This document shows positions 9,361 to 33,086 of a stretch of 64,000 nt of DNA, one piece after another. Both the position numbers and the translations under genes were made by a program. Numbering within the stretch: the first letter of the stretch is position 1; each line of letters opens with the position of its first letter. The notes beneath the pieces are model-generated. The model worked only from the letters and a program-made list of their open reading frames with translations, was not told where the DNA came from and ran no database searches. The DNA is from Amycolatopsis sp. EV170708-02-1 (GTDB lineage Bacteria; Actinomycetota; Actinomycetes; Mycobacteriales; Pseudonocardiaceae): contig NZ_CP092497.1 in NCBI RefSeq assembly GCF_022479115.1, positions 4,526,001 to 4,590,000 on the forward strand. Direction: 5' to 3'.

Positions 9361-9805
9361 GGACCAGCCCGGCTGGCGCGGGAGAACGAACGCCCCATCA
9401 AAGAGGTGCGGCTGTTCGGGGGATCGATCATTCCCACTCGTGCGGGGGAGAACGTCGTGCAGGCGGTGAAGGCCGTGCACGAGGCCGGACCATTCCCGCT
9501 CGCGCGGGGAGAACAACCTCGGGCTGGCCACCGATGACCACGGCAGCGGACCAGCCCCGCTTGCGCGGGGAGAACCTGTCCACCTGGCCGACCGAAGTTA
9601 CTGGGCGGGGACCAGCCCCGCTCGCGCGGGGAGAACCAGTTCCCGTTGTCGCGGTCGGGAGTAGCCCGGTCGTACGGGGAAGACGTCAATGGTGTGCAGG
9701 TGGTGCCGTCGCAGTGGGAACCAGCCCTGCTAGTGCGGGGAAGGCCCGGTCATTTAGCTTCCTTCACGACCAACGCTGGGACCAGCCCCGCCTACACGGG
9801 AAGAC
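9361..9805 (-). CRISPR. CRISPR array A1 (type I-E), about 8 repeats
   Basis: Repeats of about 28 bases begin near 9361, 9424, 9487, 9548, 9609, 9657, 9717 and 9779, mostly at a 61-62 base period (one spacer is shortened). On the plus strand each reads GGACCAGCCCCGC-x-CGCGGGGAGAAC or close variants. This is the reverse complement of the type I-E repeat, so crRNA is read on the minus strand. Left repeats are more degenerate than right ones. An AT-rich leader-like sequence abuts the right end, as expected for minus-strand transcription. Confidence 0.93.
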
Positions 9806-9916
9806 ACTACTTGACCTGGTTGTCTGAAAATCGTAGTGGCGAATTTTATTCAGTCTGGTTTCAGTCACGTCGGATCATAATCCTTAATCAGGCGGTCCGG
9901 CTTGCCTGTCGGAGGC
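9806..9916 (-). promoter_or_regulatory. CRISPR leader copy L1
   Basis: AT-rich 110-base sequence directly abutting the last repeat of array A1 (the junction reads CACTACTTGACCTGG). It contains GGCGAATTTTATTCAGTCTG. Closely similar copies occur at 23322 and 33087, and in two of the three cases the copy abuts a repeat at the same base. This is the position expected of a leader serving leftward transcription and spacer integration. Confidence 0.72.
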
Positions 9917-10064
9917 GGAGCCAGCCCTGCTCGCGCGGGGAAGACAGTGCCACGACAAGGCGGGCTATCCGGGGTCACGGATTAGCCCCTCCTGTGCGGG
10001 GACGACCCGGCATCCGGAGTGGACGGAAACGATCGCCGGGCACCCCCGCTCGCGCGGGGACGAC
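9917..10064 (-). CRISPR. CRISPR array A2 (type I-E), 3 repeats
   Basis: Three repeats in the same orientation near 9917, 9979 and 10039, ending GCGGGGAAGAC or GCGGGGACGAC. The array lies right of leader L1 and next to cas3, so L1 cannot be its leader; its own would lie in 10065-10306, where I see no copy of the L1 sequence. Confidence 0.88.
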
Positions 10065-13056: not shown

Positions 13057-14639
13057 CGACCCCCTTCGACCTCAGCGTCGAACCTTGGATCCCTGTCGTT
13101 CGCCTCGATGGCACGCGCGAGGACGTGAGCTTGCATGATGTGCTGCTGCAGGCACACGAGATCCGCAGGATCGTGGGAGAGACCCCACCGATGACCGCCG
13201 CGCTATATAGGCTGCTCCTGGCACTGCTACACAGGGTTTACGGGCCGGCTCGCCGCGGCGACTGGGGTGAGTTGTGGTCGGCCAAGGCGTTCAGCGTGGC
13301 CCCGCTTGATCGTCATCTCGAGGCCCATGAGTTCGATCTGTTCCATCCTGAGGTGCCGTTCCTGCAATGCCCGGCACTTCCGGAGGAAAAGGGCAGTACC
13401 GTCGCGAAGCTGATCCCGCACAAATCTGTGGGGAACAACGCGACGTTGTTCGACCACACCGTCGTGTCGGATCGTGTGGAGGTGTCACCGACTGCGGCGG
13501 CGCGGTGGCTGGTGACTGCTCAGGCGTTCGACCCGGGTGGTATGAAGACCCCTTACGAGAAGGACAAGTCTTCGGAACGCGCACCGTGCAGCAGCCTTGG
13601 GGTCGTCCTCCTTGAGGGACGGACGCTGAAGGAAACCCTTTTGCTGAACGCGGTCTCCTACGATCCGCAGGCCGAGAAGCCGCCGATGACAACCATGGAA
13701 GATGCTCCTGCTTGGGAGCGCGGCGCGCCTCTCCCCACACCGGGCAGCCGTGATCCGCTGGGGTGGACCGATTTGCTGACGTGGCCGTCCCGGCGTATCA
13801 GGCTGATTCCAGAAGTCGTTGATGGCGAGCAGATCGTCACCAGGGTGGTCCTCACGCCTGGCGTGCGCCTGAAGGGCAGCCTGCCCGACCTGGAGATCAT
13901 GGCGGCGTTCCGTACGCCCCGCGCGGTGAACGGGAAGATCAAGCCGGGTACTCCGATGCTGCCGATCCGGCTACATCCGGTTCGCGGGGTCTGGCGGCAC
14001 AGTGTCGAACTGCTGCTGCACGATCCACGGGAGGAGGAACGGACACGACAGCGACCCCGTGCCCTGAAACAGATCGCCGATCTCACCGAAGCCGGATACA
14101 TCCCGGACGACACCGTCTACACGTTGCGCGTGTTCGGGCAGAAGCTCGATAAGAACGCGTCCGTTGTGGAGGGGTATCTCGAGGAGGAGGTGCCCGCGCC
14201 GGTCGCGTTGATCCGAGCGACCGACAAAGAACTGGCCGGGCTGATCGGGACCGCCATCGAACTCGCCGACGAAGCCGGAGCCGCGCTGCGCGGGATGCAA
14301 CGCGAGTACCACAAAGACATGCGCGCCGAGCCGGACGTCACTCTCGACCTCGCCTACTGGCCGGCGCTGGCCCGGCCGTTCGAGGTGTTCCTGCGTGCGG
14401 TCAACACCGCCCGGCTACAAGGCGCGTCGGAACGGAGCGCCGTCACGGCCTGGCGGCGAGCGGTTCTGCGGATCGCCGAGGGCGCCGCGGAGACGTGGAC
14501 AGCTGGTGTCGCGGCGTCTGATCGCAACCTCAGCATGCTCGGCAAGCAGCACGCGGTGTTCCGGAACCGGCTGTCCAAGATTGCCCGCGTCTTCGACGCC
14601 CGAGCCGCCAAGTACCTCACGAGAGATGAGACCGAGTGA
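13053..14639 (+). CDS. cas8e: Cascade large subunit Cas8e (Cse1/CasA)
   Basis: 528 residues, the usual Cse1 length. It begins MTTPFDLSVEPWIPVVRLDG, the standard Cse1 start (FDLL..PWIPV), followed by SLHDVLLQAHEIRRIVGETPPMTAALYRLLLALLHR. It contains the FHPEVPFLQCPALP segment of the N-terminal domain and the C-terminal four-helix bundle. Cse1 recognises the PAM and recruits Cas3. The ATG at 13053 overlaps the preceding stop; the GTG start of cse2 overlaps its own stop. Confidence 0.95.
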   Translation: MTTPFDLSVEPWIPVVRLDGTREDVSLHDVLLQAHEIRRIVGETPPMTAALYRLLLALLHRVYGPARRGDWGELWSAKAFSVAPLDRHLEAHEFDLFHPEVPFLQCPALPEEKGSTVAKLIPHKSVGNNATLFDHTVVSDRVEVSPTAAARWLVTAQAFDPGGMKTPYEKDKSSERAPCSSLGVVLLEGRTLKETLLLNAVSYDPQAEKPPMTTMEDAPAWERGAPLPTPGSRDPLGWTDLLTWPSRRIRLIPEVVDGEQIVTRVVLTPGVRLKGSLPDLEIMAAFRTPRAVNGKIKPGTPMLPIRLHPVRGVWRHSVELLLHDPREEERTRQRPRALKQIADLTEAGYIPDDTVYTLRVFGQKLDKNASVVEGYLEEEVPAPVALIRATDKELAGLIGTAIELADEAGAALRGMQREYHKDMRAEPDVTLDLAYWPALARPFEVFLRAVNTARLQGASERSAVTAWRRAVLRIAEGAAETWTAGVAASDRNLSMLGKQHAVFRNRLSKIARVFDARAAKYLTRDETE

Positions 14640-18081: not shown

Positions 18082-18870
18082 GGGACTTGCCCCGTTCGTG
18101 CGGGGAGGACGTCACCGCGACATCATGCCTCGATGAACGGCGGACCAGCCCCGCCTGCGGGACAGTGCCCCTACCCGCATGGCCGGCGGTTGACGGCGGG
18201 CCCACCCCGCTTGCTCGGGGACGACGAAGGTCTGCGCACAGACGGGCCCTGAATCGGGACGAACCCAGGTTCCGCATGGACGGGCGTCGGCCTCATAGCC
18301 GCGGACATCTGGTGGCAGGGATCAACCCTGCTCGCGTGGGGAGAACACGTGGACGACGTCGCCCGCCTGATCGACGCTGAACCAGCCAAGCTCGCGCGGG
18401 AAACCGTTTGAGAGCGACCTGGATTCCAAGACGGCCCAAAGAACAGCCCCGCTTGCGCGGGGACAACGGCGGCTACGGGGCCGACTGAGCTGATGAGCTC
18501 GGACCCGCTCCGCCTGCTTGGCTCGACCTGCTCGCCCTTCTCGTTGAGGAGGCACATCGCGGACCAGTCCCGCCTGCGCGGCACGACCATGGCTTTGCCG
18601 CGCTTCAGCCGCTGGGATCGGCACCAGCCCCGCTCGGGCGGGTACGACCCCGCCGGGGCAGGGCCTTTGAATGGATCAGTCCCGCCGCATCGGGACGGCA
18701 CCTCTTTCAGTACCACTCACGCGCTTCGGTTCGGGCTAGCCCTCTTGCACGGGTACGACATCACGCAATCGATGGTGTATACCGAGGCGCTGGGACCAGT
18801 CCCGCTTGTGGAGAGAGAGACCGTGGGTCGGTGTTCGCTGGACCGGCCCGCTTCGGACCAGCCCGTGGCT
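18082..18870 (-). CRISPR. CRISPR array B (type I-E), about 13-14 degenerate repeats
   Basis: Repeat-like units near 18082, 18142, 18201, 18257, 18318, 18380, 18440, 18500, 18560, 18620, 18673, 18735, 18795 and 18845, at a 56-62 base period. Individual units differ from each other at many positions (for example GGATCAACCCTGCTCGCGTGGGG versus GGACCAGTCCCGCCTGCGCGG). Orientation is the same as the other arrays. No leader copy abuts the right end. The regular period with poor repeat identity marks an old array under weak selection. Confidence 0.85.
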
Positions 18871-20662: not shown

Positions 20663-22082
20663 CAAAACCAAGCCCGGCTTGGGCGGGGGTGACACCAGCC
20701 CGCAACGGGCTGAGAGCCAAGCGACAAGACCAGCCCTGCTCGTGCCGGGACGACATGCGTCACATAATGCGCCCGAGGTCGGGCGGGGACGACGACGGGT
20801 CCGTCACGCCCGACACGCTCACCACGGGACCAACCCCCACCTGCGCGGGGATGACGACGCGATCGAGGAACGGGTGGATGTCCAGGAGGACCAACCCCGC
20901 TTGCGCGGGGACGAAATCGGCGGTGCGTTTGAGCTGGTGATGGTGTCGGGATCAGCCCCACCTCCGCGGAGACAACAGCCAGCATGCTGGTGAGCGGAAC
21001 GCGAACTTAGGACCAGCCTCGCTCGCGCGGGGAGAACGCGACGTCGTTCAGAAAGAGGTCCCAAGCGACGGGTCAGCCCTGCTCGCGTAGGGACGAAGGG
21101 ATCCTTACGGTCGAGATGATCGGCGATCCGGGACCACCCTTGCTTGCGCGGGGACGACGTCGCCCAGCTCGTCGGCGAGCGCTATGTGCCGGGACCAGCC
21201 CCGCTCGCGCGGGGACGACTGCACCTCGTTGGTCGCGCCCTCGGCGACGATGGGGCCAGCCCCGCCTACGCGGGGAAGATCTGTCGATCCTGTCCATCGC
21301 CATCTACGTGGGACCAGCCCGCCTGGGCGGAGACGGCGAGCATAGTTCCCCGGTCGACGTTAACCGCAGGGAACAACCCCGCTTGCGAGGGGCTGGGGCG
21401 ACGGAGGCGCCGATCGGTAATGACTGGACTAGCCCGCTCGCGCTGGGAGGACCAGACGAACCCGGTCCGGTTCACGCTGACCGACGGACCAGCCCCGTGC
21501 ACGCGGAGAGGACCTCACTGACGCCGGAGTGGCCGACGGCCTGGAGGGACAAGCTTCCGCTCGTGCTGGGAGGACATTGTTGTCGCTGGCAGGGCTGCCT
21601 GGTTGCTTGGTGCCCCGAACGCGAGGGATCAACCTCGCGCGCGAGGACGACGGCCGCCGCCCCGATGTCCAGGACCTCAATGCCGTGGGGATCAGCCCCG
21701 CTCGCGCGGGGAGAACTGCAACACCCAAGTGTCTTGGTGGCGAGGTCGGGACCAAGCCCCGCCTGCCCCTCGAAGATTGGCGGTCGATATGGGCAGCTGA
21801 TCAACCAGATGGGACCACCCCCGCATGCGCGGGGAAGACGTAGCGATGACCGCCGAGCCGCTCACCCAAAACGGACCAGCCCCGCTTGTGCGGGGACGAC
21901 TCGTGGTCGTTGAGCGGGCCGACGATCGGCTTGGGACCAGCCCTGCTCGCGCGGTGAGAATTTCGGGGTAGATGTGGGTGCAGGGTTCCAGGACCGCGAA
22001 CCCCGCCTGTGCGGGAACGGCGGCCTAGGAACACCGTCGACGGGCAACCCGGACGGACCCAGCACCGCCTGCGGGGGGGGGG
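20663..22082 (-). CRISPR. CRISPR array C (type I-E), about 24 repeats
   Basis: Repeats at a 60-62 base period, for example near 20826, 20888, 20949, 21010, 21070, 21130, 21191, 21252, 21311, 21371, 21425, 21486, 21545, 21618, 21689, 21748, 21811, 21873, 21934, 21992 and 22052. Best copies read GGACCAGCCCCGC-TCGC-GCGGGGACGAC; others have lost hairpin symmetry. Transcription is leftward. The right (leader) end is cut by an IS110 element, beyond which leader copy L2 is found. Confidence 0.92.
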
Positions 22083-24496: not shown

Positions 24497-25980
24497 CTAG
24501 CCCGCTCGCGTGGGGACAGCCAAACAAGTGCCTCACCAGGAGCTGCGCCGACGGGATCAGCCCGCCTGTGTGGCACGGCGGGATCGGTGCCGCCGCAGGC
24601 GATGCTGGGTGAGAACCAGACCTGCCTGCGCGGGGACGGGCTGGGTCGGCGAGCCGGCGGAGAACATCATGTTCGGATCAGCCCCGCCTTCGCGAGGGAC
24701 GGCATGCTGACCGCGATCAAGAGCGTGGAACCGGTAGGACCAACCCCGCCTGCGCGGGACGACGAAGGCGCGAAGCCACCGTGCCCGCCGTGGATGGGAC
24801 CAGCCCCGCTGGCGCGGGGAGGACGGGGGCTCAGCTTCGATGCCCAAGAACTCGTCCGAACCAGCCCCGTTCGCGCGGAGACGACTGCTCGGTCAGCTTG
24901 TCCATGGTAGTTATGCCTGGCTCAAAACCGCCCCGCACGGGGACGAGACGACCAGCCGAGAGTGGTCGAGCTCGTGGGGACCAACCCGTTCGCGCGGAGC
25001 GACAGCCACGCCCGGACAAGGCGTTCGCGGGTTGCTTCGCGAGCGGTCGGCGGGATGTCGACGTTTCGTAAGTTGGCGAGTTGCCGGCGCCGTTTGTGCC
25101 GGGCGTTCTGCCCGCTGAGGTTGAGCGGCCAGGCCCAGACGCTCGGCCAATGCCCGGTCTCCAGGACGGCGATGACGTGCTCGGACCAACCCCACCTGCG
25201 CGGGGACGATGCCCCGCACGCAATTGCTCTGAGGGTCAGCCCGCTCGCGTGGGGACGGCTGGATGTGGATGTCGTTGTCGATGTGCCAAAACGGCTCAAC
25301 CCTGCTCGCGCAGGAACGATCTGCCGCAGTTGGGCGGCGCGATCAACCAGGTGGAGCCAACCCCGATCGCGCAGGGAGCGCATCCAGTCGCGCTCGTTCA
25401 CAATCCCACCGACGGACCAGCCCCGGCTGCGCGGGGACGTCCAGCTGCGCGTCGTCTGGCGCATCACCGAGGGACCAATCCTGCTTGCGCGGGGACGACT
25501 GAAGCGTGCTCATTGCGGCCGCACCGACAGCTGGACCATCCTCGCTTGCACAAGGACAACAAGGGAAGTGGTCGCGCGCTTCACCCGGCCAGGCAAACAG
25601 GCCCGGCGTGTGGGACAGGTGAGCGTAGGCGATGACCCAACCCCAGGTGCCTGGGCCAACCCCAGTTTCGCGGGGACGATCGAGGCGTTGCAAATTCGAA
25701 GTCGGTGATGTCGGAACTAACCCCGCCTGCACGGAGATGCGTTGTTGGTGGACGCGACGATGTTGCCGTACCCGGGATCACGCCTGGGCGGGGACGACAC
25801 CACGTGGGGACTGAGGTGACGGTGGCCTGCGGACCAACCCCGGCGCGAGGACGACAGCATATCGAACATGGCGAGCTTCAGCGGTGAGGGACCAGCCCCG
25901 CTCACGCTGGGTGACCGCAGCGCGGATCCGAACACTTCGCCGCCTGTGGATCAGTCGCATTCGCGCGCGGGATAGCCACC
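24497..25980 (-). CRISPR. CRISPR array D, main part (about 23 repeats)
   Basis: Repeats near 24497, 24556, 24613, 24675, 24737, 24796, 24858, 24920, 24978, 25182, 25233, 25293, 25354, 25415, 25473, 25535, 25597, 25650, 25712, 25773, 25832, 25889 and 25951. Most keep GGACCA at one side and GCGGGGACGAC at the other, but with many substitutions. A repeat-free interval of about 175 bases lies at 25007-25181. No leader copy is seen at the right end. Confidence 0.9.
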
Positions 25981-26716: not shown

Positions 26717-27612
26717 TCACTCAGCCATTCGGCGGGCGAAGGTCGCGCACAGCGAGTCGATGTACCGCAACGCTTCCGGAGTCAGATCCTCATCGCCGAG
26801 CACCACCTCTAGCCGCGCCTCGGCCCGCTCGATGATCTCGACCAACCCGAAGGAGTTGTAGTTAGGCAGGCCGCGCAAGGCGGTGGCGGCACGGACGGTG
26901 GACTCGTCGATCCGCAGCACCTCCTGGATCGCGGCGAGCACCGCCGCCCGGCGGCGAGCCGGGTGGCGATGGCGACGTCCTCGTGGAGCAGGCGGCCGAG
27001 GTCCGCCAGCACGGCCGCGGTCGGTGCGCCGTCAGGGACCGGCGAGCGGCGACATAGCGTTTCGAGGCGAGCGTCAGCCAGGCTTGGACGTGCGCGTCGA
27101 CCTCGGGGGTCGGCCGGTCGTGCCTGGCGGCGTACAGCAGCCGGGAGCGGCCGAGCAACCAGATGTCGAGCGCCGGGACGGCACCGGTCATCGCCCGCGC
27201 GTTGGCGGTGAGCACGTCCGGCGGTTCGGCGACCGGCTCGATGGTGAACCACAGCGCGGTGGCCGTGGCCGGCAGGGCGTCCAGTTCGGCGGAGGAGAGC
27301 CGCCAGACGCCGGGACGGCACGGACCCCACGGGGTCTCGTCGTGGTAGGCGTCGACGACGGTGTCCGATGTGGACAGAAGAAACGTGTGCTCGGTGTGAC
27401 TGCGGCCGGCGTCCACGCCAGGTCGTAAGCGTTGGCGATCACATACAGCGGATCGGCCTCGTCGGCGAGCTCCCGCAGCCGGGCGCCGTCGACGCGATCT
27501 GGGCGCGCGAGCGCTGGCCCGCAATCACACTGCGAACCGCCGCGAGATCACGCAGGCCTGAAGGAATTCGAGCCGAGCCAGCGGAACCCGCGCGGCTTCT
27601 GGCGATTCTCAT
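26717..27612 (-). pseudogene. Broken gene of the RiPP-like operon with an acyl-carrier-like C-terminus
   Basis: The ATG at 27612 lies 6 bases after the methyltransferase stop, so it is the fourth gene of the operon. Reading requires four frame changes, all minus-one: near 27505 (after GQRSRAQIA), 27410 (AYDLAWTPA to HTEHTFLLSTSDTVVDAYH), 27050 (KRYVAARR to PDGAPTAAVLADLGRLLHEDVA) and 26950 (to LAAIQEVLRIDESTV). The joined product is about 295 residues. The last 70 residues (ALRGLPNYNSFGLVEIIERA, then LGDEDLTPEALRYIDSLC) resemble a carrier protein with NSF at the position of the usual DSL. The remainder is unknown. Whether it is dead or mis-sequenced is open. Confidence 0.5.
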
Positions 27613-27618
27613 CGCGCG

Positions 27619-28353
27619 CTAGGCCGGATCATACTTAGCAACAAAGTGCGCGGTAGAGCCGGTCAGTGGCCCGGTGCGGTCCTGCGCGTTGGTGAACAGT
27701 GCCTGCGGTGTGAATCCGGCGAGGGTGGCGTAGAGCTCGAGTTCGCGGGGGAACAACACACGGCGGTGGAGAAGGTCGTGTTCGGTGGTGCCGTTGTCGA
27801 GCTGCCAGGTGCGGTGGACGGTGGAGATCTGGGTGCGGGCGTCCCAGCTGTGTTCGGTGGTGACGTCGGCGTGGAGTCCTGCCGCGTCGACGCGGCTGCG
27901 GGTTGGCGTGGTCGTGGTGGTGGGGGCGATTTGGGTGACGATGATCAGCAGGGTGCCTGGGTGGGCGTGGGCGGCGAAGGTGGTGAACGCGGCCTGGATG
28001 TCGTTGTTGCGGTGCAGGTAGGCGAGGGTGTTGCCGAGGCAGGTGATGACGTCGAACGTGCGGTTCAGTCGCACGGTGCGAATGTCTCCGACGTGGAGTT
28101 CGAGGTCGGGGTACCGCTGTCGTGCGTGGTCGATGAGCGCGGGTTGAAGGTCGACGCCTACGCAGTGGTGGCTGGTGGCAAGCTGGGCGAGGTCGCGGGC
28201 AGTGCCGCAGCCGAGATCCAGAATGCTTGCAGAGGGAGCGGTGCCGTGCTGGTCGATGAGATGCTGGCAGGTCGTGGCGGTGGTGCTGTCGCGGGTGAGG
28301 GCGTCGTAGAGGTCGGGGCGCCGGTAGGCGGTGTTGTGGGCGGCCAGGTTCAT
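27619..28353 (-). CDS. Class I SAM-dependent methyltransferase of the RiPP-like operon
   Basis: 244 residues from the ATG at 28353, which overlaps the cyclase stop as ATGA. The SAM-binding motif I is ILDLGCGTARDLAQL near residue 43, followed by the acidic motif II (VGVDLQPALIDHARQRYPDLELHVGDIRTV) and FDVITCLGNTLAYLH. This is the Methyltransf_11/25 type used on small molecules and peptides, and not the PIMT-like enzyme known from aspartimide lasso peptides. Tight coupling suggests that it modifies the product of the cyclase. Confidence 0.9.
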   Translation of the reverse strand: MNLAAHNTAYRRPDLYDALTRDSTTATTCQHLIDQHGTAPSASILDLGCGTARDLAQLATSHHCVGVDLQPALIDHARQRYPDLELHVGDIRTVRLNRTFDVITCLGNTLAYLHRNNDIQAAFTTFAAHAHPGTLLIIVTQIAPTTTTTPTRSRVDAAGLHADVTTEHSWDARTQISTVHRTWQLDNGTTEHDLLHRRVLFPRELELYATLAGFTPQALFTNAQDRTGPLTGSTAHFVAKYDPA

Positions 28354-29900
28354 ACGACCAGCGTGTTGGTCGGGGCCTGCAAGGATCGGAGGCCGACTTC
28401 GAGGACGAGGGTGTCGCACAGCACGGACGGCACGGTAGCGCTCTGGTGGGCGTGCTGCACGGTTCGTCGGAGTGCGTCGGGGTCGATGAAGCCTTGGTCG
28501 ACGAGGAGCATCCCGTCGGCGAGCAGGCGTTCGGCGAGCCGGAGTCCGTTGTGCCGCAGGCCGTGTTGCATCAGGTCCCGGAAGTGCTCGGTTCGCCGCG
28601 GGTGGGTGACCAGGGGCGGCAGGCCAGCGTGGGCGAGGAAGTCGCGGTAGAGCTTCTTGTGTCGACGGAGCGCAAGGGGGAGTTGCTCGGCGAACCGGAT
28701 CAGGGGTCGGTGGGTGAACGGGGCGACTGGCCAGATTCCGGACCTGAGGTAGGCGGGGTGGTGGATGGCGAACCCCATGAGGGTCGGTGTCGGCAGCACG
28801 GCGGAGGGTGCGAGGTTGTCATCGAGGTGGGCGACAGCATCCCGGGCGCGGGGCCCGAGCCAGGGGATATCCGTCAGGGGTTGGGGAGGCGGTGGCGGCA
28901 GTTCGTCGACTCGGGGTGCCATGATCTCGTCGCCGCCGTTACCGGTCAGCATGATCTCCACGCCGCTGCGGGCGGCTTGGTCGGCAAGGGCTTCGAACGC
29001 CTCGCGGTAGAACTCGCCGCGCGGATCGTGTGCTGTGCCGCTGGCACGGATGCCGTTCTCGCAGAACGGTGCGTGGTCGTGTGCTGCGAGGATGTAGTCC
29101 ATCGCGCCGACCTGTCTGGCGATCGTCACACGGCGGCGGTGCTGCTCTGCGCCGAGGGCTCCGTCGACGATGAGGCCGAAGGTGCGCAGCGGAGCCGGTG
29201 AAGCCGTGCGGGCGGCGACCGCGATGGTGGCGGAGTCCAGGCCGCCGGACAGTTCGAGGCCCAGCGTGGCGTTGCGGTCCTGCCAGGGGCGCACCGCGTC
29301 GGTGAGCAGATGCGTGAGTGCGGCAGTGGCGTCCACCCCGGAGCGTAGGTGCCGTGCTTGAGTGATGTGGCTGGCTGGGGCCGGGTATGCGACCTTCAGG
29401 CCGGATGCGGTGAAGGTCGCGGTCGCTCGTTCGGTCAGCATCGTCGTGTCGGTGAACAGGGTGTCGCTGCTGTAGCGGTGCCGCCTGGTCAGGGCACGTA
29501 CCACGGCGCGATCGAGCAGGCCGGACCGACGTGTGAGCCGGCGGAGCGCTGGGAGATCCCAGGTGCCGTGCAGGGTGTCTCCGTCGACGGCCAGGTAGAG
29601 CGGAACGGTTCCGCCGATTCCGGCCGTAAGGGTGATGCGCCCTGGTTGTATGCGGAGCAGCAGTGCGTCTCCCGTCATGCCCGCATCGACATCGGTGTAC
29701 TGCGTCGTCCCCGACAAGGACAGGGGGCTTGCGGCGTCACGGACCAGGACGGTGGTGGCACCTGGGCGGTCGTCGATGTCGTGACGCAGCGCCGGATGGG
29801 CGACCGGTTGTATCCAGCTTTCTCCGCGCCGCCAGCGATCGGTGTCCCAGTGCCACGTCGCGTCGGTGCTGGTGTTCAGTGTCAGGTGAAACGAGAGCAT
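28350..29900 (-). CDS. Asparagine-synthetase-like macrolactam synthetase (lasso-cyclase type)
   Basis: 516 residues. The C-terminal ATP-pyrophosphatase domain shows the PP-loop SGGLDSA at residues 218-224 and the downstream MLTGNGGDEIM block. The N-terminal domain starts MLSFHLTLN and lacks the cysteine nucleophile at position 2, so it is not a glutamine-hydrolysing asparagine synthetase. The same architecture (inactive glutaminase fold plus ATP-adenylating domain) is used by lasso-peptide cyclases and related macrolactam-forming enzymes, which activate an Asp/Glu side chain by adenylation. It lies 74 bases after a short peptide gene with a strong ribosome site. No leader peptidase or PqqD-like gene is adjacent. 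Confidence 0.82.
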   Translation of the reverse strand: MLSFHLTLNTSTDATWHWDTDRWRRGESWIQPVAHPALRHDIDDRPGATTVLVRDAASPLSLSGTTQYTDVDAGMTGDALLLRIQPGRITLTAGIGGTVPLYLAVDGDTLHGTWDLPALRRLTRRSGLLDRAVVRALTRRHRYSSDTLFTDTTMLTERATATFTASGLKVAYPAPASHITQARHLRSGVDATAALTHLLTDAVRPWQDRNATLGLELSGGLDSATIAVAARTASPAPLRTFGLIVDGALGAEQHRRRVTIARQVGAMDYILAAHDHAPFCENGIRASGTAHDPRGEFYREAFEALADQAARSGVEIMLTGNGGDEIMAPRVDELPPPPPQPLTDIPWLGPRARDAVAHLDDNLAPSAVLPTPTLMGFAIHHPAYLRSGIWPVAPFTHRPLIRFAEQLPLALRRHKKLYRDFLAHAGLPPLVTHPRRTEHFRDLMQHGLRHNGLRLAERLLADGMLLVDQGFIDPDALRRTVQHAHQSATVPSVLCDTLVLEVGLRSLQAPTNTLVV

Positions 29901-29974
29901 GGCGAAGTGGTCCCTTCCGCGGTGCGGCTCGGGCAGTGCACGCTGCCCGAGCCGCGGGTGAGGGGTGTGGTCGG

Positions 29975-30100
29975 TCAGCTGGCGCAGTGGTCGCCCTTGT
30001 CGCCGCCGTCGGCGTCACCGGGCATCTTCGGGGCGTAGAGACCCTCCATCGAGGGCACACCGAGTACCAGTTCTCCGGTGAACATCGTGTCCACGTCCAT
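29975..30100 (-). CDS. Candidate 41-residue RiPP precursor peptide
   Basis: Short gene with an excellent ribosome site: AAGGAG nine bases before the ATG at 30100. The product opens MDVDTMFTGELVLGVPSMEG, continues LYAPKMP, and ends in a very polar tail GDADGGDKGDHCAS, rich in Gly and Asp. A glycine followed by acidic residues 4, 7 and 10 places away could form a macrolactam ring by an Asp side chain. The canonical lasso Thr at -2 is absent. It is the first gene of an operon with the cyclase-like and methyltransferase genes. The call is an inference from size, ribosome site, composition and context. Confidence 0.65.
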   Translation of the reverse strand: MDVDTMFTGELVLGVPSMEGLYAPKMPGDADGGDKGDHCAS

Positions 30101-30364
30101 CTCGTCTTCTCCTTGTCGGTTCGTGCCCGTGGCGGCATTCCCATGTCGGAACGGACAGTTGGCTGTTGCGAGCTCAGTCAACGGCTCGCCGGGCCGCGGC
30201 AGCCAGAGCAAGAACCCGGCATCGACTGGACATCAATCAGGCATATGGCCTCTGACCTGCGTGAATGCTTCAGTCGTGGTGGTAGTCCGAACGGGTGCAG
30301 CTGGCTGAGGGGTGATCAGCCTTGCCGAAGCGGTGGTTATCGTGATCGGTGACCAACGGGGCGG
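30101..30364. promoter_or_regulatory. Divergent promoter region of the RiPP-like operon and the XRE regulator
   Basis: A 264-base gap between divergent start codons, so it must carry both promoters. I see no strong palindrome. XRE/TPR regulators of this kind often act on the divergent cluster. Confidence 0.4.
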
Positions 30365-30373
30365 GTGGTGTCG

Positions 30374-31648
30374 ATGGGCGGCCGGCGAGTCGCTTTCGCC
30401 GCACGGCGGAAGGCGATGGGCTACACACAGGAATCCCTCGCGGCCGAGCTGAAGGTCGAGGCCTCCACTGTGAGCCGCTGGGAACGAGGCGAGGTGACCC
30501 CGCAGCCGGGCTACAAGGCTCGGATCGCGAAGGCGCTCGGCGTCACCCTGCACGAACTCGGTACGTTGCTCGAGCGGGCGCCGGCTCCGAAGCGGTGCCC
30601 CGCGACCGCTGCCGTAGTCCCACACGATCTTGCGGAGGCCGACGACATGAACCGTCGCGACCTGCTGCGCCTGTTCAGCGCGACAGGGGCACTGCTGGCG
30701 CTGCCCGCGGTCACGGATGCCGGTCAGGCTGCCGCTGCGGCGCGCAGTGGTGTACTTGACGTGGAGGAATTCGCCGTCTTCACCAGTGATTTGTGGCGGG
30801 TGTACGGGATGGCGCCGGCCAAGAGCCAGGTTCTGCCGCTGGTTCGGACTCAGCTCGACGTGCTCACAGACGCCCTTCGCCAGTCTCAGACACCGGCGAC
30901 CCGGCAACGACTGTGCCGGCTGGCCGCTGATCTGTTCCAGCTGGCCGGCGAGATCTATTTCGATGGTGATCGCTACACCGACGCGGCGCACTGCTACAGC
31001 CTGGCCGCGGCCGCGAGCAAGGAAGCCGGGGCGCCGGACTTGTGGGCCTGTGCGCTGACCCGGCATGCGTTCATCGCCGTCTACGAACGCCAGTTCTCCG
31101 ACGCCGCCCCGCTGCTCGACCTCGCCGCCGCTCTCGCGTCCCGGGGTGACACCGGGCTTTCGACCCGGCACTGGGTCGCCGCCGTCCAGGCGGAAACCTT
31201 CGCGGGACTCGGTGATCTTGACGCGTGCCAGCGCTCGCTCGACCATGCGGCCGAGGTCCAGCATCTGACCGGACAGGTGCACAACGGCGGCTGGCTCCGC
31301 TTCGACGGCTCGCGTCTGGCGGAGGAACGCGGTACCTGCTTCGTGACACTCGGCCGGCTCGATCTGGCCGAAGCGGCCCTGACCGATGCTCTGAACGGCG
31401 CCCTCACTGGTCGGCGCAAAGCCGGCGTCCTGACCGACCTGGCCATGATCGGCGTCCACCGCGCCGACCCCGACCAGGTCATCACCTACGCCGAGGCCGT
31501 CGTCGCCACCGCACGGAGGACCGGATCCGGAGTGGTCGCTCGCAAACTGCGTGACCTCCAGCCACACCTGGCCCCCATGCTCGCCGACCAGAACATCCAA
31601 GGACTCGATGCCGAGATCACCGACCTCGTCAGTGGCCATGCCGCATAG
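30374..31648 (+). CDS. XRE-family regulator with TPR-like C-terminal domain
   Basis: 424 residues from the ATG at 30374 (a GTG at 30365 is possible). The helix-turn-helix is RRKAMGYTQESLAAELKVEASTVSRWERGEVTPQ. A short hydrophobic segment (RLFSATGALLALPAVTDAGQAA) follows near residue 100, then helical repeats of the TPR type (for example DAAHCYSLAAAASKEAG, FSDAAPLLDLAAALA, LDACQRSLDHAAEV). Such proteins are common in actinomycetes next to secondary-metabolite genes and may sense a peptide or metabolite. It is divergent from the RiPP-like operon and in line with the small gene after it. Confidence 0.87.
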   Translation: MGGRRVAFAARRKAMGYTQESLAAELKVEASTVSRWERGEVTPQPGYKARIAKALGVTLHELGTLLERAPAPKRCPATAAVVPHDLAEADDMNRRDLLRLFSATGALLALPAVTDAGQAAAAARSGVLDVEEFAVFTSDLWRVYGMAPAKSQVLPLVRTQLDVLTDALRQSQTPATRQRLCRLAADLFQLAGEIYFDGDRYTDAAHCYSLAAAASKEAGAPDLWACALTRHAFIAVYERQFSDAAPLLDLAAALASRGDTGLSTRHWVAAVQAETFAGLGDLDACQRSLDHAAEVQHLTGQVHNGGWLRFDGSRLAEERGTCFVTLGRLDLAEAALTDALNGALTGRRKAGVLTDLAMIGVHRADPDQVITYAEAVVATARRTGSGVVARKLRDLQPHLAPMLADQNIQGLDAEITDLVSGHAA

Positions 31649-31661
31649 TGGAGGAGACCGA

Positions 31662-32021
31662 ATGCCCAACGACCGTGGCCGCGATTTCCGCGAAGCCTGG
31701 ATCGCCGGAGTCACCAAGCATTACCCCGGCGAACCGAAACCCGGCTACATCACCCCTTGGGATGAGACGCCTGACTGGGAACGCGACGCCGCCACAGCCG
31801 TCTACGACCAGGTCTTCGCCTTCATCACCGCCACCAACGGCGCCACGGCGAAGCTCACCGCAGAGCAGAAGGGCCGCTTCGTCGCCCTCTGCTGGATCGG
31901 GCAGATCTTCAAACACTTCCCCGACCCGAAACCGTCCTACGTCGCAGACTGGGACGACCTGCCCGACTGGCAGAAAGCCACCGACATCGACATCTTCGAA
32001 CGCATCGAACAAGACGCCTAG
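31662..32021 (+). CDS. Conserved hypothetical protein following the XRE regulator
   Basis: 119 residues, ATG preceded by GGAGGAG. The product has a repeated HYPGEPKPGYITPWDETPDW / HFPDPKPSYVADWDDLPDW motif, the two copies flanking a helical middle, which suggests an internal duplication. It ends DIDIFERIEQDA. It starts 13 bases after the regulator stop and is therefore in its transcript. Function unknown; no membrane helix or signal. Confidence 0.75.
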   Translation: MPNDRGRDFREAWIAGVTKHYPGEPKPGYITPWDETPDWERDAATAVYDQVFAFITATNGATAKLTAEQKGRFVALCWIGQIFKHFPDPKPSYVADWDDLPDWQKATDIDIFERIEQDA

Positions 32022-32508: not shown

Positions 32509-33086
32509 GGACTACCCCGCCTGTGCGGGGGACGGCAATCGGGCAGCTATGACGAATTCGGAGATCGGACGGACCAGGTCCGGTGGTGCAGGGACGACGC
32601 TCTGGACCGCCATAATGCCCCGGTCGTTCGTTGGACCGGCCCCGCTCGCGCGGGGAGCACGCGCACACGATCGGCGTGTCCGCGCCGTCCTCAGGACCAG
32701 CCCCGCTTGCGCGGCGAGAACTTTGCCAGGAAGTTCGTATGGGCGGTGATCACCGGACCAGCCCGCTCACGCAGGGAGAACCGGCACGAGCAGGACGGTC
32801 GCACTTGGGAGGATGGGCCAGCCCCGCTCGCGCGGGGAGAACGGGCTGAGAACGCCGGGCAGATCGACTCCGCTGCGACCAGCCCCGCCTGCGCGGGGAC
32901 GACAGCATGGCCTCGACGTCGGGCACCCGCGTGCCGGGGCCATCCCCCCGCCTATGCGGGGATGGCCGCGCTGAAAATGCGCGCGTTGAACAGCACGAAG
33001 AACCAGCCCCCTGCACGGGGTGACTCTGCAACGCGGTCGTTATCGAATCGTAGGCCGGGACCAGCCCCGCCTGCGCGGGGATGACA
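32509..33086 (-). CRISPR. CRISPR array E (type I-E), 10 repeats
   Basis: Repeats near 32509, 32570, 32633, 32694, 32756, 32816, 32877, 32938, 32999 and 33059, period 60-63. The leader-proximal copy at 33059 is near perfect (GGACCAGCCCCGCC then GCGCGGGGATGAC) and directly followed by leader L3, the expected arrangement for minus-strand transcription. The array is uninterrupted and the best-preserved in the window. Confidence 0.94.

Follow-up and report, generated by a model that had tools for sequence, protein, structure and literature searches.

The stretch of DNA analysed here (64,000 nucleotides, G000:C1:4526001-4590000, called the window below) lies in a host genome of 9.66 Mb and carries on its minus strand, in this order, genes for a short peptide, an asparagine synthetase-like (AS-like) ligase and a methyltransferase, with a regulator diverging from them on the plus strand. 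We propose, with a probability of roughly 60%, that these genes constitute an operon for a ribosomally synthesized and post-translationally modified peptide (RiPP) of an apparently undescribed class, in which the ligase closes a seven-residue macrolactam between a Lys and an Asp of the peptide and the methyltransferase decorates the product of one subclade. A first-pass annotation of this DNA had described the operon as RiPP-like but not of the ordinary lasso class, a view that was upheld and strengthened by the conserved peptide, the ATP-site motifs of the ligase and the coupled methyltransferase. The genes concerned are as follows:

29975..30100, minus strand: precursor peptide gene, 41 aa (open reading frame (ORF), ribosome site, conservation before homologous enzymes, Lys and Asp at i+6)
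28350..29900, minus strand: 516-aa AS-like ligase, a putative synthetase of the Lys-Asp macrolactam (PF00733, SGGLDS loop, no Cys2)
27619..28353, minus strand: S-adenosylmethionine-dependent methyltransferase, 244 aa (PF13649; ATGA overlap with the ligase stop)
30365..31648, plus strand: divergent regulator of the NsdA family with an XRE-type helix-turn-helix (HTH) and a tetratricopeptide repeat-like (TPR-like) part (NF053720, NsdA_fam_reg)

Conservation of the precursor peptide

The peptide gene had been credited with a good ribosome site, and the sequence AAGGAG is indeed located eight bases 5' of its ATG. The precursor consists of a leader-like part, MDVDTMFTGELVLGVPSMEGLYAP, followed by K-MPGDA-D-GGDKGDHCAS, and the precursors of Streptomyces include the type KMPGGGDNNGDHC. 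The nearest named relatives of the window ligase are from Amycolatopsis. Within this genus, full-length or near-full-length ligases were found in 7 of 80 genomes, its own included, and short fragments in two (any match, 9 of 80). The order to which G272 belongs contributed 28 loci from 27 of 293 genomes, and a phylum-wide sample, in which three candidates were scored per genome and some ligases may be missed, gave 2 of 396 genomes, again with its own included. Distant relatives of the ligase are present in Pseudomonadota.

The first-pass annotation had stated that its reading would fall if no peptide were kept before homologous cyclases. When this was checked across genomes, the peptide was found before the ligase in Amycolatopsis, Streptomyces, Longimycelium and Pseudonocardia, with the core KxPGxxD...GD[HY]C behind a leader that is also conserved. 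The operon thus pairs a genetically encoded, conserved precursor with a modifying enzyme, a general mark of RiPPs. In 24 of 29 loci (the window, counted among the 24, and 28 others), the peptide gene has a ribosome-site-like sequence and its product the pattern KxPG..D..GDHC. A peptide of this type was found in L025 by frame reading, those of L029 and L030 end differently (..YDEI), and L031, whose ligase is split between two frames like that of L026, has the peptide. The 28 loci from the order of G272 form a second set, six of which (L106, L108, L109, L111, L112, L116) are places already in the first. In this set the GD[HY]C peptide and the methyltransferase occur together in 17 of the 28 (L106-L121, L123), and in seven of the ten loci without methyltransferase (L124-L133) the precursor contains KxxxxxD but ends in another tail. 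A search of the protein database with the peptide returned five matches, all annotated as hypothetical.

The operon may decay in places. In L094 of Amycolatopsis oliviviridis the peptide is present with its frame broken near the start, about 200 to 77 bases before an intact ligase, and ligase fragments are the sole matches in G019 and G006.

A fixed spacing between Lys and Asp

A set of 32 precursors standing before a ligase was compiled in eight groups, namely A1 (10), A2 (7) and A3 (3) from Actinomycetota and five groups with 12 precursors from Pseudomonadota. Near-copies and the tandem precursor of L035 were left out, and the last 30 residues were scored. Lys followed by Asp at i+6 occurs in 30 of the 32, which is the top of 8000 residue pair-spacings (21 for the next pair), whereas 2000 shuffles of the tails averaged 5.3 and never exceeded 13. 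After removal of nine less independent precursors, six of them read from frames and three shown through a motif filter, the pair was counted in 22 of 23 (16 for the next pair; shuffle mean 4.0, maximum 10). An unfiltered repeat for L121, L123 and L126 gave the same single candidate each. The residue before the Lys takes eight identities (P, K, R, D, E, T, I, M), and this variation favours a role of the Lys side chain over a cleavage site.

Eleven plasmid regions were also compared. In eight of them a small ORF is annotated before the ligase, and seven of these ORFs contain the motif (L134, L136, L138-L141, L143), L136, L141 and L143 being near-copies. The annotated small ORF of L137 is another gene, and its peptide with KMPGGGD is unannotated; L135, L142 and L144 have no annotated small ORF, and their frames contain KGPFPSD or KAPFPND. 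A betaproteobacterial locus (L035:5882-6838) has, directly before a distant AS-like ligase, a 318-aa ORF that contains 14 KxxGxxD units in tandem, of two types. The DNA upstream of the ligase in L034 was too short for a precursor search.

The AS-like ligase

The ligase matches PF00733 with 65.4 bits (cut-off 21). Its earlier description as an AS-like enzyme without the glutaminase cysteine is correct, residue 2 being Leu. In an alignment of 36 homologues, column 2 contains Leu in 31 rows, Met in two, Ile in one and a gap in two, with Cys in none of the 34 ungapped rows, and Cys is likewise not residue 2 in any of 71 homologous proteins, some of which are fragments. SGGxDS, D268, R285, Y298, E300 and TGxGGDE are invariant in the 36 aligned homologues, and K415 is kept in 35. 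Judging from these residues, glutamine hydrolysis has presumably been lost and the ATP-site motifs retained, which, from the known chemistry of the AS family, would fit an internal amine as the nucleophile.

In a midpoint-rooted ligase tree, where long branches meet (that of L041 foremost) and deep joins may be false, the ligases of loci with the GD[HY]C tail form one clade (99/98), which coincides with the methyltransferase-bearing loci. The studied ligases and two AS-like genes of the host that stand beside a lasso-type peptidase lie on opposite sides of a branch (100/99). Groups A1 and A3 each occupy one side of a branch; the A2 and Pseudomonadota rows do not.

The methyltransferase

The third gene, which had been called a methyltransferase coupled by ATGA, matches PF13649 and overlaps the ligase stop as described. 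The ligase is followed by a methyltransferase in 26 of the 28 other loci of the first set, the exceptions being L029 and L030, and in 18 of the 28 loci from the order of G272 within the DNA covered. Its presence tracks the GD[HY]C tail. Its best relatives of solved structure are dTDP-sugar N,N-dimethyltransferases (78 bits), the cypemycin N-terminal methyltransferase is also among them (33.5 bits), and the best NCBIfam model is that of the daptide methyltransferase, NF041820, at 49.2 bits and under its cut-off of 175. With such nearest relatives, an amine is a plausible target. Since the His of the tail is replaced by Tyr in L121, His is an unlikely target; the Asp and Cys of the tail are possible ones.

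Proposed biosynthesis

In the proposed pathway, the ligase would adenylate the side-chain carboxylate of the Asp in the precursor, the epsilon-amine of the Lys would attack the adenylate, and with the departure of AMP a seven-residue Lys-Asp macrolactam would be closed (-18 Da). The Lys epsilon-amine is favoured as the attacker because this ligase presumably makes no glutamine-derived ammonia. Formation of a macrolactam on an Asp side chain had already been suggested in the first-pass annotation and is still the best-supported chemistry, but that suggestion named no partner amine; the likeliest partner is the Lys located six positions ahead of the Asp. The methyltransferase would add methyl groups (+14 Da each), most plausibly on an amine or on the tail GD[HY]C. 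The leader, if removed, would be cut by a host protease, since no peptidase or exporter was seen conserved in the neighbourhoods of the actinobacterial methyltransferase-bearing operons. Expression is probably controlled by the divergent XRE/TPR regulator, which may sense the product.

Several points weigh against this pathway. The Lys-Asp bond is deduced from sequence. The KxxxxxD motif was spotted first and counted afterwards, the members within a precursor group are related, six precursors (L025, L032, L037, L040, L135, L142) were read from frames, and non-ATG candidates in the order of G272 were displayed only if they bore the motif. In L134 the motif lies outside the last 30 residues; in L040 the Asp that aligns with the relative L139 sits at i+7, with another KxxxxxD in the N-terminal part; and in L041 more than one Lys-Asp pair is possible. 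There is no motif in L042, the one locus inspected among the weaker matches L042-L087. No peptide was found in L026 with its split ligase, in L122, which has the methyltransferase and where the ligase match begins at residue 201, or in the frames searched before the ligase in L130, L132 and L133. The matches of the ligase to solved structures are weak (7ylz, 26.3 bits; 1jgt, 23 bits).

Alternative explanations

In lasso peptides, a macrolactam is formed on the side chain of an Asp or Glu of a ribosomal precursor, and the lasso and albusnodin/ikarugamycin cyclases share the PF00733 family with the ligase studied here. A lasso-like product, for which a host protease would cut before the Lys and the alpha-amine so released would close a seven-residue ring on Asp7, possibly with a threaded tail, is an unlikely explanation. 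A ring from residue one to seven would match the i+6 spacing. In addition, most AS-like enzymes in the vicinity of RiPP elements are lasso cyclases: about 3,800 PF00733 candidates are reported in a preprint, about 3,500 of them lasso-related and about 300 uncharacterised (PMC13060819).

The genes and precursors speak against such a product, as the first-pass annotation had noted in finding the lasso leader peptidase, the recognition protein and the Thr at -2 all missing. Of 18 genomes, 13 lack the leader peptidase domain PF13471, and the other five have it far from the ligase or on a different contig; in the host itself its matches are at 4.139 and 4.222 Mb, compared with 4.554 Mb for the ligase. 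The PqqD-like recognition domain (B1) is absent from 6 of the 18 genomes and elsewhere in 12, never near the ligase. Thr at -2 occurs in none of the 32 precursors if cleavage before the Lys is assumed and L040 is scored on its N-terminal motif, and the position that would then be -1 is the varied one described above. The ligase reaches 44.4 bits with the albusnodin/ikarugamycin cyclase model NF033561 (cut-off 300) and 40.2 bits with the lasso cyclase model NF033535 (cut-off 525), a narrow model that another host gene, one passing NF033561, also fails (34.6). Lasso systems differ from this operon, in which there is no B2 peptidase beside the ligase and the Lys is conserved. With the cyclase scores, the absence or distance of peptidase and PqqD domains, the separation in the tree and the missing Thr at -2, assignment to the lasso class is disfavoured.

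Two other PF00733 genes of the host, L145 at 4.139 Mb and L146 at 4.222 Mb, stand beside the lasso-type PF13471 matches. L146 passes NF033561 with 740.4 bits, far from the score of the ligase, and the other gene has 260.9, below the cut-off.

It is also unlikely that the ligase modifies the Asp without forming a ring (amidation with free ammonia, a nitrile, or an isoaspartyl or imide product), the Lys serving for recognition only. AS-like enzymes are known to act on RiPP precursors in this manner: in the same preprint, TsrC and ScdTA are described as amidating and PesC as making the nitriles of nitrilobacillins, with glutamine and also free ammonia as its nitrogen source (PMC13060819). However, while these enzymes resemble the ligase in being AS-like and acting on a RiPP precursor, their reactions take place at a C-terminal carboxylate (PMC13060819), whereas the residue concerned here is an internal Asp and Cys2 is missing. 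A Lys at a fixed distance would, moreover, be unneeded for amidation.

A further idea, which we regard as quite improbable, is that the ligase joins the peptide to something else, giving oligomers or placing a small amine on the Asp, with the peptide acting as a scaffold. The 14 tandem units of L035 would suit a polymer or scaffold, but most precursors have a single unit with the two partners at a fixed distance, an arrangement that an internal bond explains best. That the ligase is an ordinary metabolic enzyme of the AS-like kind, with a free amino acid as its substrate and the small ORF in front of it by chance, can hardly be credited: PF00733 is generally known to be widespread, but the peptide is kept across genera and phyla, and on this conservation and the Lys-Asp statistics a chance ORF is rejected.

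Relation to known systems and significance

The Lys-Asp macrolactam favoured here would resemble graspetides with regard to the bond itself. Graspetides contain a Lys-to-Asp/Glu side-chain amide made by ATP-grasp ligases. The operon differs in that its ligase belongs to PF00733 and no ATP-grasp match was found in a scan limited to the operon, not the wider neighbourhood. Beta-lactam synthetase (1jgt), to which the profile match is weak, is likewise an AS-like enzyme of intramolecular amide formation; its substrate is a small amino acid derivative. No description of this peptide/ligase family was found in the titles and abstract starts of the open-access literature.

RiPPs and AS-like cyclases are already known kinds, and if the bond is shown the system is possibly a new RiPP class. 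In that case AS-like enzymes would gain a further RiPP chemistry, namely the stapling of Lys and Asp side chains by a single enzyme, which would be useful for peptide engineering. The KxxxxxD ligase family may be among the approximately 300 uncharacterised AS-like RiPP candidates of the preprint (PMC13060819), and part of them could then be sorted by looking for KxxxxxD in a small ORF that precedes the gene of the AS-like enzyme.

The regulator and a possible signalling role

The divergent XRE/TPR regulator recorded in the first-pass annotation is present and matches NsdA_fam_reg (NF053720) with 174.9 bits (cut-off 75); two Streptomyces regulators also exceed this cut-off (156.6 and 444.6 bits). 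A member of its BLAST cluster is located upstream in 20 of the 28 other loci, several of which are near-copies and two of which (L023, L093) belong to the cluster less directly; it is divergent in 19 and on the operon strand in L093. L028 has it downstream, and it was not found in L025, L027, L029, L030, L091, L092 or L095, the last of which has another HTH protein, read by eye, in its place. Alignments of the intergenic regions (three Amycolatopsis and four Streptomyces) and an inverted-repeat scan of six revealed no convincing operator shared between regulator and peptide. In eight loci of a Streptomyces subgroup (L016-L021, L024, L031), an ORF of 74-111 aa stands between regulator and peptide, about 700 bases before the ligase.

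The small peptide gene adjoining a regulator with HTH and TPR-type parts corresponds to the layout of RRNPP circuits. RRNPP peptide-receptor pairs are described as two adjacent genes in Firmicutes and their mobile elements (PMC10075063). The operon here resembles them in its small peptide gene beside an HTH plus TPR-like regulator and differs in including modifying enzymes. A wider scheme can be offered only as a speculation with the odds well against it: a RiPP class in two phyla in which Lys and Asp at i+6 are stapled by a stand-alone ligase of the AS-like kind, with neither a leader peptidase nor a recognition protein involved. The methylated actinobacterial branch of this class would be a pheromone read by the adjacent NsdA-family XRE/TPR receptor in an RRNPP-like circuit of Streptomyces and Amycolatopsis. 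If true, peptide signalling would here run through a regulator of the NsdA family.

Neighbouring genes and other observations

Two further features adjoin the operon:

31662..32021, plus strand: 119-aa protein encoded behind the regulator, perhaps an accessory (conservation beside the regulator)
26717..27612, minus strand: remnant of a protein of about 370 aa with a carrier-like end, frame-broken; outside the system (frames, locus searches)

The 119-aa protein has no Pfam or NCBIfam match, and a protein of 119-130 aa stands beside the regulator in 8 of the 28 other loci (L090, L094, L010-L014, L022).

The remnant had been taken for a fourth gene of the operon, beginning 6 bases on and ending in a carrier-protein-like domain. 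Its carrier-like C-terminus is real but below the cut-offs (PF00550, 16.2 against 20.8 bits; AmcB, 25.3 against 80), and there is no single ORF, as no frame stays open from 27612 to 26717 and the region falls into five pieces in alternating frames. Four of the five match a one-frame protein in G070 and G032 of the same genus with 69 to 100% identity (about 370 aa in G032), and the first piece, which has the ATG 6 bases on, does not match that protein. Neither of these two genomes has a match to the ligase in the comparison of 80 genus genomes, and the five pieces gave no convincing match in the 28 related loci (best E 0.076). The pieces are therefore considered an unrelated remnant; membership of the fourth gene in the system is rejected and the carrier-protein idea dropped.

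Other genes follow the ligase in two loci outside Actinomycetota. In Mesorhizobium (L134:5563-6986) an annotated phosphotransferase and a GNAT acetyltransferase come directly after it, and in Pseudomonas (L036:8344-9758) it is followed by kinase-like and GNAT-like ORFs, named by eye. From their annotation and appearance, these genes are putatively a different tailoring set.

The window also contains degenerate arrays resembling clustered regularly interspaced short palindromic repeats (CRISPR), with a period of about 61 nt and repeats like GGACCAGCCCCGCCTGCGCGGGGACGAC. The repeat starts fall into five clusters:

9487-10037
18083-18621
20727-22056
24613-25889
32571-33058

The operon sits between the last two of these clusters, and a Cse1 gene (type I-E) is located at 13068-14480 of the window.

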